Assembly (NCBI RefSeq): GCF_003050935.1
Contig: NZ_QAOX01000001.1
Span: 496,001 to 560,000, forward strand
Reading direction: 5' to 3'
Origin: Luteibacter sp. OK325
GTDB lineage: Bacteria > Pseudomonadota > Gammaproteobacteria > Xanthomonadales > Rhodanobacteraceae
DNA length: 64,000 nt
A program made the position numbers and the translations under genes. The notes under the pieces were generated by a model that was given only the letters and a program-made list of their open reading frames with translations, did not search any database and was not told the DNA's origin. Numbering within the stretch: the stretch's first letter is position 1; each line of letters begins with the position of its first letter. Shown piece by piece: positions 40,785 through 45,746 of this stretch.

Positions 40785-41645
40785 TCAGGCGGCGATGGCG
40801 ACGCGCATCTTCTTCATGGCGTTCGCTTCGATCTGGCGGATGCGTTCGGCGGAAACACCGTATTCATCGGCAAGATCCTGCAGCGTGGCCTTGTTGTCTT
40901 CGGCCAGCCAGCGGCGCTGGATGATGTCACGCGAGCGGGCGTCCAGGTTGCCGAGCGCCGACGACAGCGCGCCCATCTGGTTCTTGCTCGCGTCTTCTTC
41001 GGCGAGGTTGTCATACGGATCCGCACCTTCGTCGACGAGGAAGGCAGCCGGTGCCGGCTTGTCGTCGTCATCGGCGTCGGCCGGAGCCTCGAAGCCGACG
41101 TCACGACCGGACAGACGCGATTCCATCTCGCGGACGGTCGCCTCGGGCACGCCCAGGTCCTGGGCGACCACGCGGACTTCCTCGGCATTCATCCAACCCA
41201 GGCGCTTCTTGCTCTTGCGCAGGTTGAAGAACAGCTTGCGCTGGGCCTTGGTGGTGGCCACTTTCACGATGCGCCAGTTGCGCAGGATGAACTCGTGCAT
41301 TTCGGCACGGATCCAGTGAACCGCGAAACTGACCAGACGAACGCCCTGATCCGGGTCGAAGCGCTTCACGGCTTTCATCAGGCCGATGTTGCCTTCCTGG
41401 ATGAGGTCCGAGAGCTGCAGGCCGTAGCCGTTGTAGCCACGGGCCACGTGGACCACGAAACGCAGGTGGGACATAACGAGCTGCTTGGCGGCGTCGAGAT
41501 CGGCGTCGTCACGGAAGCGGCGCGCCAGCGACTGCTCCTCGTCAAGGCTGAGCACCGGGATGCGATGGACCGCCGAGATGTAGGAATCCAGACTGCCAAC
41601 GACGCTCGGGAGCCCGTAGTTACGGGTGGCGAGGACCTGAGACAT
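40785..41645 (-). CDS. rpoH: Heat-shock sigma factor RpoH (sigma-32)
   Basis: A 286-residue sigma factor that directs RNA polymerase to heat-shock promoters. Region 2 has [20 protein letters not shown] and [23 protein letters not shown]; the RpoH box [10 protein letters not shown] follows directly, which separates RpoH from other sigma factors. Region 4 ends [35 protein letters not shown] lies about 8 bases before ATG 41645. A CIRCE operator lies 32 bp upstream of the start, suggesting repression by HrcA. The classical ftsE-ftsX-rpoH neighbourhood is present but interrupted by ung, a regulator and a pemK-like gene. Confidence 0.95.
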
Positions 41646-41676
41646 GTGTGGAACCTCCTGAAAACTGGTGTGCAGA

Positions 41677-41703
41677 TTAGCAGTCCCGAAGTGAGAGTGC
41701 TAA
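41677..41703 (-). promoter_or_regulatory. CIRCE (HrcA) operator in the rpoH leader
   Basis: Arms TTAGCAGTC (41677-41685) and GAGTGCTAA (41695-41703) are separated by exactly nine bases. The consensus is TTAGCACTC-N9-GAGTGCTAA, so 17 of 18 arm positions match; the one mismatch is at 41683. It ends 32 bp before the rpoH start codon, a usual place for HrcA repression. The rpoH ribosome-binding site lies between. Confidence 0.87.
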
Positions 41704-41729
41704 GCCATGCCGAAGTTCATATCGGTTAA

Positions 41730-41747
41730 CTGTACGCTATGGTACAG
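41730..41747. promoter_or_regulatory. 18-bp palindrome upstream of rpoH
   Basis: CTGTAC, GCTATG, GTACAG form a perfect 6/6/6 inverted repeat, 26 bp upstream of the CIRCE site on the rpoH side of the gap. It may be a second operator near the rpoH promoter. The protein that binds it is unknown. Confidence 0.45.
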
Positions 41748-41921
41748 AAATTGATCCGGCATGTCCAGAGGGGGTACCCGGGTGTTCAGGAGGCAGACGG
41801 CTCCCCGGCCGCGGAGTGAGCGGCGACAGGGGTGTCGACGAGGCTATGTGGCCGTCGTGCCTACAGTTATTGGGGCTGGGGGCTGGCTTTAAAGGGAAAG
41901 CGGGCAACCTAACGTAGACCA

Positions 41922-42335
41922 ATGGCCCTCGCCTTTCCGCCCGATCCAGGCACCGTCGTCATCTGCCGCTTCCCGGCGGCGGGGACGGTCGTCGGTGCTG
42001 AAATGGTCAAAATCCGTCCCGCCGTGGTTGTGGGGCGGGCCCTGCAAGGCAGACGAGGGCTAGTCAACATCGTTCCCATAAGCATGACGGCTCCGGCCAG
42101 GCGTCGTCTCTGGCATGTCCCCGTTTCGGTGGCGGCAATGCCTCCCGGCTGGCGGGAGAAGCCAGGCGCCCGATGGGCGAAGTGCGACATGCTCACGGTG
42201 GTCAGTCTCGAACGGCTAAGCCTCTCCGCTTCAGCGCGCCACGGCGGCCACCGTCGGTTTGGCGAGGATCGAGTGGATGCGGCCACCATGGACGGCATTC
42301 GTCGCGCCATCGCTTATATGTTCGAACTTTTCTGA
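41922..42335 (+). CDS. PemK/MazF-like protein without visible antitoxin
   Basis: A 137-residue protein whose first half has the PemK/MazF core: PDPGTVVICRFP (about 7-18), EMVKIRPAVVVG (about 27-38) with the conserved Lys-x-Arg-Pro, and GLVNIVPISMTAPA (about 46-59). Family members are ribosome-independent mRNA interferases. The C-terminal half (AKCDMLTVVSLERL) is also PemK-like. No antitoxin-sized frame with a credible start lies within 180 bp upstream or directly downstream, so it may be solitary or a housekeeping derivative. It lies on the strand opposite to its neighbours, splitting ung from rpoH. Confidence 0.75.
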   Translation: MALAFPPDPGTVVICRFPAAGTVVGAEMVKIRPAVVVGRALQGRRGLVNIVPISMTAPARRRLWHVPVSVAAMPPGWREKPGARWAKCDMLTVVSLERLSLSASARHGGHRRFGEDRVDAATMDGIRRAIAYMFELF

Positions 42336-42546: not shown

Positions 42547-43242
42547 TCAGAGCTCGGTGCGCGGCGGCAACGACCAGTCGATCGGCGCCTCACCGCGTGA
42601 CTCGAGATACCCGTTCGCCTTGGCGAAGTGGCCACAACCGAGGAAGCCGCGGTGTGCGGACAGCGGCGAGGGGTGCACGCTGCGCAGAATCAAATGGCGC
42701 TTGCCGTCGATCAGCTGCCCCTTCTTCTGCGCGTGGCTTCCCCATAGCAAGAACACCAGGCCCTCGCGCTCGCGATTCAGGGCCTCGATAGCAGCGTCGG
42801 TGAAGCCTTCCCAACCGTTGCCCTGATGCGAAGCGGCCTGTCCCGCTTCCACGGTGAGCACGGCATTGAGCAGGAGCACCCCGCGATCGGCCCACGGCGT
42901 CAGGCACCCATGATCGGGACGAGGAATGCCGAGGCAGCCCTCGATCTCCTTGAACATGTTCTGCAGCGACGGCGGCACGCGTACACCGGGGCGTACCGAG
43001 AAGCTGAGTCCGTGCGCCTGCCCGGGACCGTGGTACGGATCCTGGCCGAGAATGACCACGCGCACTTTGTCGAAGGGCGTGTGCTCGAAGGCGTTGAAGA
43101 TGTCCGGACCGGGCGGATAGATTTCCTTGCCATGCGCCTTCTCGTCACGAAGGAACGTGGAGAGCGCCAGCATGTCGGGTCGATCGAGGTAATCGCCGAT
43201 CCGCTGCTTCCAGGAGGCTTCCAGTCGTACGCGCTCGTTCAA
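42547..43242 (-). CDS. ung: Uracil-DNA glycosylase
   Basis: A 231-residue DNA-repair enzyme that removes uracil from DNA. Family-1 signatures: catalytic water-activating motif [18 protein letters not shown] (about 65-82) and the DNA-intercalating loop [11 protein letters not shown] (about 190-200). It overlaps the upstream response-regulator gene by 4 bp (ATGA), so it belongs to the ftsE-ftsX-regulator-ung operon. Confidence 0.95.
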
Positions 43243-44078
43243 CCGGTCGCCCTTTCGCGAAGGTGCAGGGCAACGCGCAGCTGGAACAGCAGCTTCGTGA
43301 TGAGCAACTTCTCCTCGACAGGCTTCTCGACGAGATCGTTGGCGCCGGCGCGCAGCAGCGCGGCCTGGTTCGCCGGATTCTCGTCACCGGTCATGATCAG
43401 CGTAGGCAGCAGGCCCTTGCCGTAGCCGAACTCGTTGCGGATGCACTCGACGAGGTCGCCGCCGGTGAGCTCACCCTTCAGGCTGACGTCGGTCAGCACG
43501 ACATCCGCGCCGACTTCACCACGCGATTTCGCTTCGTGGAGGTAGGCGATGGCATCTTCGGCGCTGATCACGTGACGAACGGTGAGTCCGTACTTTTCCA
43601 TCATGCGGCGCGTGGCCAGTGCAACCACGCGGCTGTCTTCCACGTAGAGCACTTCGCCTTCGGCGCCGCCTTCGGGTCGAACATAGCCGCGGATGAATTC
43701 CGCGAGCGCGCCGAAGCCGAGCGACTTGTCGAAGTAGTCGGTGACGTACTCACCCAGTTCGCGCCGATGCAGGCGCGACTCGACATCGCCGGAGACGACG
43801 ACGATGGGCATGTAGATCTGCGGGGCCGACTCGCGGACGAAGCGGGCCACATCCAGGCCGTCCATATCGGGAAGGCGCAAGGCCACGGTGACGAAATCGA
43901 AGACGCCGCGCTGCAGTTCGGACTGCGCCTCGGCGCCGGTGGACACACCGATGATCTCGACACCTGGCACCTCGGCCGCGACCACGCGCGAAATCAGCTG
44001 GCGGACGACTTTGGAGCCGTCAACCAACAGGATTCGCGGCGCAGCGCCGGCGACACCCGAACCGATGTGAGATCCCAC
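43239..44078 (-). CDS. Tandem-receiver response regulator with a degenerate first receiver
   Basis: A 279-residue protein made of two receiver domains and no output domain. Receiver 1 (about 14-130) has VDGS instead of the acidic pair, and Ala at the phospho-acceptor position ([12 protein letters not shown]). Receiver 2 (about 140-270) has VEDS, an intact Asp in [10 protein letters not shown] and Lys in VEKPV, so only it can be phosphorylated. The arrangement suggests a regulated protein-protein switch. It sits 13 bp after ftsX and overlaps ung by 4 bp. Confidence 0.85.
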
Positions 44079-44091
44079 CCCTGTCTCCCCT

Positions 44092-45072
44092 TCAGGCCGC
44101 TGCCGCGCGGCGAATCTGCCGCGCGCTGACGAGCCGCGCGCCCAGCCACCCGAGCAACGCCGAGGCGAAGGGTACCGAAAGCAGCAGCCATGCGGGGAGT
44201 CCGCCGAAACTGACGCTGCCGTCGTAGGCCGCGGTCAGCCGTCCCACCGGGCCGGCCATGGCGAGTTCGAGGGCGGCGGCCAGGACCACGGCGAGAATGC
44301 CGGCGAGCAAGCCGAGCCAGATCCCCGCGTACAGGTAAGGCCGGCGAACGAAAGGACGACTGGCGCCGATCAACAACAGCACGCCGATCTCGGCACTGCG
44401 GCTCTGGATGTCCACGCGAATGGTGTTGCCGACCACCAGCAACGCGGCGACGCCGAGCAGCAGGGCCAGCAGCGATACGGCGCGGCTTCCCACGCCAAGG
44501 AGCGCGTCGAGGCGCTGACGCCACGCGCCGGTGTCCTGGACCATATCGACACCCGGGGTCGCCTTCATCGACTCGACCAGCCGGTCGACCTGTTCGATCG
44601 CCAGGCCCGCCTTTGGCTGCACCGACAACACGTACGGCAACGGATTCACGTCGAGCGATTGCAGCGATCCGGAGAAGCCCTGTACCTCGGCCAGCTCGGC
44701 CAGGCCGTCTTTCGGGGTCCGCACGACGATCTCGGCGACCTCGGGACGACCACGGAGGGCGGATGCGGCGGTTTCCGCCATCGCGCCGTTCTGGCCAGGC
44801 TTCATGAAGGCACTGATGGACTGGTTGCGACCGAGGGCATCGCCCATCCGCTGCACGTTGCCGAGCAGCAGGTAGAAAGCCAGCGGCAGCGCCAGCGCGA
44901 CACCCATGACGGCCACCGTGAGCAACGTTCCCAATGGCCGGGCACCCAGGCGGCGCAGGCTGATCGACAGGCTCCACACATGGTGTTCGCGCCAGGCGCT
45001 CACGTGGCGAGGACCGCTACGCCGGGTCTTCTCCGGCTCGGGCTGGCGGCGTTGTTCGCGGACGGCGTTCAT
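44092..45072 (-). CDS. ftsX: Cell-division ABC permease FtsX
   Basis: A 326-residue inner-membrane protein with four membrane helices: one near the N-terminus (TLLTVAVMGVALALPLAFYLLL, about 50-70), a periplasmic loop (about 75-195) that in other species activates septal amidases, and three helices in the last 120 residues. With FtsE it couples ATP hydrolysis to cell-wall splitting at the septum. It overlaps ftsE by 4 bp. Confidence 0.92.
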   Translation of the reverse strand: MNAVREQRRQPEPEKTRRSGPRHVSAWREHHVWSLSISLRRLGARPLGTLLTVAVMGVALALPLAFYLLLGNVQRMGDALGRNQSISAFMKPGQNGAMAETAASALRGRPEVAEIVVRTPKDGLAELAEVQGFSGSLQSLDVNPLPYVLSVQPKAGLAIEQVDRLVESMKATPGVDMVQDTGAWRQRLDALLGVGSRAVSLLALLLGVAALLVVGNTIRVDIQSRSAEIGVLLLIGASRPFVRRPYLYAGIWLGLLAGILAVVLAAALELAMAGPVGRLTAAYDGSVSFGGLPAWLLLSVPFASALLGWLGARLVSARQIRRAAAA

Positions 45073-45746
45073 ACCACCTCCATGGCGGGGACATCGGCGA
45101 CCAGCTTGCCGTGATCGAGCACGACGACGCGTTTCTTCATCCGCTTGATCAGCATGAGGTCATGGCTGGCGACGAGGACGGCGGTGCCGACCTGCTGGAA
45201 CTCGGCGAACAGGCCCATGATCTCCATCGCCAGCTGAGGATCGAGATTGCCGGTGGGTTCGTCGGCGATAAGCACCGCGGGCTTGGCGACGATGGCGCGG
45301 GCGATACCGACACGCTGCTGCTCGCCCGTGGAGAGGAACTCGGGTAGCTGCTTCTCGTAGCTGAGCAGGCCCACTTTTTCCAGGGCGGCGCGCACACGGC
45401 GCCCGCGGTCAGCCGGAGCCACGCCAGCGATCACCAGCGGCAGTTCCACATTGGCGAACACGGTGCGGTCCATCAGCAGCCGGTGGTCCTGGAAAACCAT
45501 GCCGAGCTTGCGACGGATACGCGGGATATCGGAGGGACGGACGGTGTTGAGCTTTTGGCCGTCGAGGGTGACGACACCGTTGGTCGGGCGCTCGATCATG
45601 GCCAGCAGCTTGAGCAGGGTGCTCTTGCCGGCACCGGAGTGACCGGTGACAAACGCCATCTCGCCGGCTTCGACGCTGAACGACACATCGGTAAGGGCCT
45701 GGTGATCGCCCTCGTACCGTTTACTCACCAGATCGAAACCGATCAC
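45069..45746 (-). CDS. ftsE: Cell-division ABC ATPase FtsE
   Basis: A 225-residue ATPase: Walker A GHSGAGKSTLLK (about 35-46), signature LSTGEQQRVGIARA (about 138-151), Walker B VLIADEPTGNLD and switch His in ASHD. MIGFDLVSKRYEGDHQALTDVSF is the usual N-terminus. It partners FtsX. ftsY, often upstream, is absent; a REP cluster lies directly upstream instead. Confidence 0.95.
   Translation of the reverse strand: MIGFDLVSKRYEGDHQALTDVSFSVEAGEMAFVTGHSGAGKSTLLKLLAMIERPTNGVVTLDGQKLNTVRPSDIPRIRRKLGMVFQDHRLLMDRTVFANVELPLVIAGVAPADRGRRVRAALEKVGLLSYEKQLPEFLSTGEQQRVGIARAIVAKPAVLIADEPTGNLDPQLAMEIMGLFAEFQQVGTAVLVASHDLMLIKRMKKRVVVLDHGKLVADVPAMEVV

Follow-up and report, generated by a model that had tools for sequence, protein, structure and literature searches.

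Repression by HrcA and activation by sigma-32 are as a rule treated as two separate heat-shock systems. At the class I heat-shock genes (groESL and the dnaK operon) the HrcA operator, CIRCE, is a palindrome of two 9-base arms around a 9-base spacer, and in the established model HrcA is inactivated when GroEL is titrated by unfolded protein. Control of sigma-32 (RpoH) in E. coli is largely post-transcriptional. Promoters of sigma-E (RpoE, ECF02-type) have the consensus GAACTT, a spacing of 16-17 nt and a -10 of the TCTNA type. A 2003 study by Permina and Gelfand reportedly treats heat-shock regulons of beta-, gamma- and epsilon-proteobacteria, to go by its title, and may already list rpoH among the CIRCE targets. 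For Geobacter sulfurreducens a CIRCE before rpoH was predicted in 2004 at -51, the only such case among the delta-proteobacteria of that table (Table 8 of PMC545781), and the portion of the paper available to us gives no link of this shared HrcA operator to sigma-E. Within the literature searched, as far as the accessible portions of the texts extend, PMC545781 was the only source with a CIRCE before rpoH; those of PMC10696704, PMC11764788 and PMC12617022 make no mention of an rpoH operator. A heat-labile HrcA, which would be an alternative trigger, is described in the excerpt at hand of PMC8533110, and promoter P3 of E. coli rpoH is transcribed by RpoE according to that of PMC8103513.

The locus described here lies in a 64,000-nucleotide stretch of Luteibacter sp. 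OK325 that was analysed as a whole (the window). HrcA repression and sigma-32 activation appear to meet in it, together with envelope stress, in an element of 42 bases.

A predicted HrcA operator ahead of rpoH

The sigma-32 gene of the window (40785-41645, minus strand; 286 aa) matches TIGR02392 (RpoH) with 419.6 bits against a cut-off of 323.1, and the nearest named RpoH, from Dyella flagellata, is 84% identical. Its Shine-Dalgarno sequence AGGAGG (41654-41659, minus strand) is found in 22 of the 23 genus members. Upstream of this, separated from the ATG by 31 bases, lies a CIRCE at 41677-41703 which on the coding (minus) strand reads TTAGCACTC-TCACTTCGG-GACTGCTAA (on the plus strand TTAGCAGTC-N9-GAGTGCTAA) and agrees with the consensus arms TTAGCACTC-N9-GAGTGCTAA, at their 9-base spacing, in 17 of 18 positions. 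It is the sole CIRCE match within the whole window, and 100 shuffles of the window gave none at up to three mismatches. The preliminary description, made from the letters alone, had placed a 17/18 CIRCE here ahead of rpoH, and is borne out; its distance of 32 bp to the rpoH start is the coordinate difference across the same 31 bases. We have little doubt, judging from the sequence, that 41677-41703 is an HrcA operator.

The single mismatch is at arm position 7, which is changed in one arm in 18 of the 23 genus members and in both arms in 3, and which varies within the order at the rpoH as well as the groESL sites. For this reason the window site need not be weaker, and a reading of it as a degenerate site was rejected. 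In the neighbouring family f2, 5 of the 10 genomes read have TTAGCAGTC-N9-GACTGCTAA (18/18 to that variant) as their rpoH site, and 6 of 10 show this change in one arm or both arms of the groESL site. This drift of the arms suggests that the preference of HrcA has shifted inside the order.

A single hrcA gene (TIGR00331, 318.5 bits against a cut-off of 197.2) is present in the genome, adjoining grpE- and dnaK-like frames, and the check for the repressor proposed along with the site thus had a positive outcome. The best sigma-32-like promoter before hrcA scores 9/12 and is unconvincing. Genome-wide there are three CIRCE matches at up to three mismatches: the rpoH site with one, and a groESL site and a further site with three each. 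The groESL site (15/18) is thus farther from consensus than the rpoH site. The further one overlaps the end of an open frame of 465 codons, and G017 is the only other genus member to have it; it was rejected as a true site and is probably a chance match, leaving two credible CIRCE sites in the genome, those of rpoH and groESL.

Conservation of the site and its association with HrcA

All 23 genus genomes carry the CIRCE before rpoH at 16-17 of 18 positions, which was the second check proposed for the site. Each of them has two or three CIRCE matches at up to three mismatches, a third being present only in G017 and in G000. The rpoH site has 1-2 mismatches and the groESL-type site 3 (2 in G012), such that the former is nearer consensus in 22 of the 23 genomes, the two being equal at 2 mismatches each in G012; the groESL identity of the second site was examined in G000, G002, G015 and G019 and is taken from likeness in the other members. 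With hrcA present and the arms kept throughout the genus, the earlier placing of HrcA above sigma-32 is well supported at the level of sequence. In the order draw, 11 of 11 members of the own family have the site. Across the order it was found in 35 of the 70 rpoH upstreams read, out of 77 sampled (4 of the missing 7 are from families f188 and f189), and in four families (f187-f190) in 0 of 27 read, counted irrespective of HrcA status.

For the class we drew 124 genomes, each with a family label of its own and that of the window among them; rpoH was found in 111 (112 genes). A CIRCE of at least 15/18 within 500 bp of rpoH was required, the best shuffle reaching 14/18. The site precedes 72 of the 79 rpoH genes in HrcA-positive genomes as against 7 of the 33 in HrcA-negative ones (Fisher p 5e-13). 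Of the seven HrcA-negative genomes with a site, four are 62-85% complete and three (G088, G147, G166) 97-99% complete. Among the seven rpoH genes without a site in HrcA-positive genomes, that of G104 is a second rpoH beside a site-bearing copy. The two rpoH genes of G104 (L196, L211) differ in this respect, one with a CIRCE of 17/18 and the other with a best match of 10. HrcA over sigma-32 is, at the sequence level, the common state among the HrcA-bearing relatives. These class counts and the 2004 prediction for Geobacter sulfurreducens mean that the rpoH site is not peculiar to this genome; a unique rewiring was accordingly rejected, and the wiring of HrcA over rpoH is of a known kind.

A set of named RpoH loci was read for 78 of its 80 members (L083 and L101 left out), and 42 of the 78 have a CIRCE of at least 15/18, including Dyella, Rhodanobacter, Nitrosomonas, Pandoraea, Methylocaldum and Pseudoalteromonas. 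In the rows of these loci from Enterobacterales, Vibrio, Photobacterium, Aeromonas, Haemophilus and Shewanella no CIRCE was found before rpoH. It may be noted that HrcA was searched for in 50 of the 80, chosen partly by site status, and that the resulting counts are not a rate.

An operator in register with a sigma-E-type promoter

On the coding strand the hexamer GAACTT (41713-41718, minus strand), the putative -35, ends 9 nt before the CIRCE. After 16 nt it is followed by the putative -10, TCTCA (41692-41696, minus strand), in which the two bases closing the left CIRCE arm are joined to the three that open the spacer. The boxes and spacing of this GAACTT-N16-TCTCA agree with the sigma-E consensus, and the CIRCE is thereby built into the promoter. 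RpoE is encoded in the genome (TIGR02939, 315.6 bits against a cut-off of 236.15), and its own gene is preceded by GAACTT-N16-TCTCA with boxes and spacing identical to those of rpoH, from which we infer that RpoE would recognize this form. Within the genus GAAC is found at a gap of 9 in 23 of 23 members (full GAACTT in 19), and the third spacer base is A in 22.

The same register is seen across the class. At the 79 rpoH sites of the class draw GAAC stands 9 nt before the CIRCE in 42 and 10 nt in 7 (49 in total), while registers other than 8-10 have a mean of 0.47 each. The third spacer base, which falls in the -10, is A in 43 of the 49 sites with GAAC but in 11 of the 30 without (p 3.6e-6), and the combined form for the class is GAACTT-N16-TCNNA with the -10 formed by the end of the left arm and the first spacer bases. 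A search for exact GAACTT-N(3-18)-CIRCE found the composite in 77 of 369 class genomes, with a gap of 9 in 64 and of 10 in 7; HrcA is present in 75 of these 77 as against 268 of the 369 overall. In 74 of the 77 the element precedes an RpoH gene (30 of 30, 11, and 33 of 36), which in G165 is a 79-residue fragment lying at the end of a contig. The remaining three lie before a GroES-like frame (G362, gap 12), at an unidentified place (G235, gap 15) and before a ClpB-like frame (G144, gap 9), the names GroES-like and ClpB-like being our presumptive reading of the translations. In G144 this GAACTT-N9-CIRCE belongs to C8:47834-48895 (L391), and the rpoH of that genome is without CIRCE.

As a control we used the groESL upstreams of 30 of the 77 composite genomes (30 of their 32 groES matches), a different set of genomes from that behind the 79 class-draw rpoH sites with which they are compared. 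All 30 have a CIRCE of at least 15, yet GAAC is in register in 0 of 30 and the third spacer base is A in 3 of 30. A sigma-E promoter in register with the CIRCE is very likely on the sequence evidence. It may be noted that this half is not universal, since GAAC in register is absent at 30 of the 79 class sites. No account of a CIRCE built into a sigma-E-type promoter was found in the literature searched, which is weak evidence as the matching was by exact spelling; the composite anatomy of an HrcA operator within a sigma-E-type rpoH promoter looks like the new part here.

The two kinds of site also differ in where a sigma-70-like -10 lies. The groESL CIRCE follows a TATNAT-like -10 situated directly before its left arm (at least 4/6 to TATAAT in 22 of 30, as against 15 of 79 rpoH sites in the same frame), whereas the rpoH CIRCE overlies the promoter boxes and its -10-like hexamer uses the end of the right arm plus three bases (at least 4/6 in 72 of 79, as against 3 of 30 at groESL). 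The hexamers on opposite sides of the operator suggest a mirrored geometry, and on this basis HrcA would cover the core promoter at rpoH and the start region at groESL.

Proposed mechanism

The best explanation in our view, and a likely one, is a composite promoter-operator for rpoH at which HrcA would block sigma-E-driven transcription; that HrcA and sigma-E do compete on this element in the cell is fairly likely. What the sequences show is the two elements, their fixed register and conservation, the association with hrcA and a damaged operator in one relative that has no hrcA match; binding, use by sigma-E, repression and feedback are the proposed part. RNA polymerase with sigma-E would use GAACTT-N16-TCTCA to transcribe rpoH. 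As the CIRCE starts between the two boxes and covers the -10, an HrcA dimer bound there would shut the sigma-E promoter by occupancy, would also cover a weaker embedded sigma-70-like promoter and may block polymerase arriving from a sigma-70-like promoter farther upstream. Under envelope stress sigma-E would drive rpoH up, and under cytoplasmic protein stress HrcA activity would fall and the block on rpoH be lifted, the trigger being either GroEL occupied by unfolded protein or a heat-labile HrcA. Sigma-32 would then raise the chaperones and so restore HrcA as a feedback. With HrcA blocking sigma-E-driven transcription, rpoH would read envelope and cytoplasmic stress together.

The preliminary description had concluded that the two heat-shock circuits are wired in series. 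Its placing of HrcA above rpoH stands, but the picture is incomplete on two counts: groESL keeps a weaker CIRCE of its own, which would let HrcA act in parallel on rpoH and on groESL, and the operator of rpoH sits on a sigma-E-type promoter, by which a third circuit would enter at the same place. As the composite element recurs across many families, the setting of sigma-32 in HrcA-bearing bacteria can be tested on one small promoter fragment.

Alternative explanations

A weak effect of HrcA fits the same anatomy and overlaps the explanation above, with which it is compatible: HrcA may bind and affect rpoH little, with sigma-32 controlled chiefly through protein stability and translation, which its largely post-transcriptional control in E. 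coli would suggest. A complement to the rpoH Shine-Dalgarno sequence upstream in 21 of the 23 genus members is in keeping with this. We consider it unlikely, as the rpoH site covers core promoter elements and is the one nearer consensus in nearly all genus genomes.

It is quite unlikely, in our estimate, that CIRCE control of rpoH works solely through a sigma-70 promoter, with GAACTT incidental or part of an unrelated element, though several features agree with such a reading. Besides the 30 class sites that are without GAAC in register, the third base 3' of the CIRCE is T in 73 of 79 rpoH sites as against 2 of 30 groESL sites, so that TGC is followed by a TAAAAT-like -10; among the class sites this embedded -10 most often reads TAAAAT (31 of 79). 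The T is kept in 23 of 23 genus members, where the embedded -10 is nevertheless weak, the window having TAATCT (41674-41679, minus strand; 3/6 to TATAAT) after TGC. TTAGCA (41698-41703, minus strand) may be its -35, and these bases are fixed by HrcA in any case, whatever their -35 role. There is also a separate sigma-70-like promoter upstream of the composite element, TGGACA-N17-TACCAT (41739-41767, minus strand; 9/12, shuffle mean 0.0), which appears in the genus as TGGACA with TACCAT or TACTAT in 20 of 23 members, the other 3 having TTGACC. Against sigma-70 alone, the fixed gap, the linked A at the third spacer base and the identical promoter of rpoE are not expected by chance, E. coli P3 is transcribed by RpoE (PMC8103513, portion available), and GAACTT-N16-TCTGA precedes rpoH in five loci (L054, L058, L062, L077 and L082).

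That the palindrome is instead a hairpin of the rpoH mRNA leader (a thermometer or stability element) is very improbable, for while a leader from the upstream promoter would include it and can fold the stem, the folding does not surpass that of shuffles (z -0.64, with 53 of 200 folding just as well), TTAGCACTC is combined with GACTGCTAA in 18 of 23 genus members, which puts a C-C clash in the would-be stem, the presence of the site tracks hrcA, the spacer length is altered in a genome without an hrcA match, and Rfam gave no leader match at E up to 1, its one weak hit being located elsewhere.

Loss of HrcA or the operator

The altered spacer belongs to G237, a genome of family f2 listed as 100% complete and without an HrcA match, whose groESL is without CIRCE (best 9). 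By our reading of its sequence, the rpoH of G237 retains GAACTT-N16-TCCAA over a damaged operator with the left arm altered and a spacer of 10 bases. In four of its congeners rpoH and groESL each have a CIRCE; the HrcA search covered one of these, G346. It is not a general rule that the promoter outlives the operator, since a sigma-E-like promoter within 350 bp is seen at 6 of the 33 class rpoH genes that have no site (0.95 expected), 4 of these among the 26 in HrcA-negative and 2 among the 7 in HrcA-positive genomes. From groups without CIRCE at rpoH, 18 of 23 loci fit a loose pattern for a sigma-E-like promoter, five of them being the GAACTT-N16-TCTGA loci named above; the 23 were hand-picked and counted without a shuffle control. 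Enteric relatives share with E. coli P3 a promoter of the GAACTT-N16-TCTGA type, a form we take to match P3 itself, but are without CIRCE at rpoH; no HrcA was found in the three enterics searched (L037, L058 and L061), nor in E. coli (control list).

With chances about even, rpoH may ancestrally have had an HrcA-gated sigma-E promoter in beta- and gamma-proteobacteria, which would make E. coli and those of its relatives that have no HrcA derived forms that lost hrcA and the operator and kept P3. This gives a concrete and testable history for E. coli rpoH P3 and, if true, would make the textbook heat-shock circuit a remnant of an older two-input gate.

Other features of the rpoH upstream region

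A palindrome CTGTAC-N6-GTACAG (41730-41747) covers the -10 of the sigma-70-like promoter farther upstream and is found in 22 of 23 genus members; it may be a site of another regulator. Some 148 nt before rpoH, the block CCTCCTGAA (41785-41793, minus strand) is complementary to the Shine-Dalgarno region of rpoH (41654-41662, minus strand). Perfect complements of at least 6 nt occur upstream of rpoH in the 21 genus members mentioned; in 16 the complement is 8 nt or longer (two of them elsewhere). The block could be either an anti-Shine-Dalgarno sequence for a longer transcript or the Shine-Dalgarno sequence of a divergent one. A PemK/MazF-like toxin gene (41922-42335, plus strand; PF02452, 47.7 bits against a cut-off of 23.1) is located upstream of and divergent from rpoH. 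The usual gene order is ftsE-ftsX-rpoH, and in the window this neighbourhood (42547-45746, minus strand) is broken by response-regulator, uracil-DNA glycosylase and PemK-like genes.
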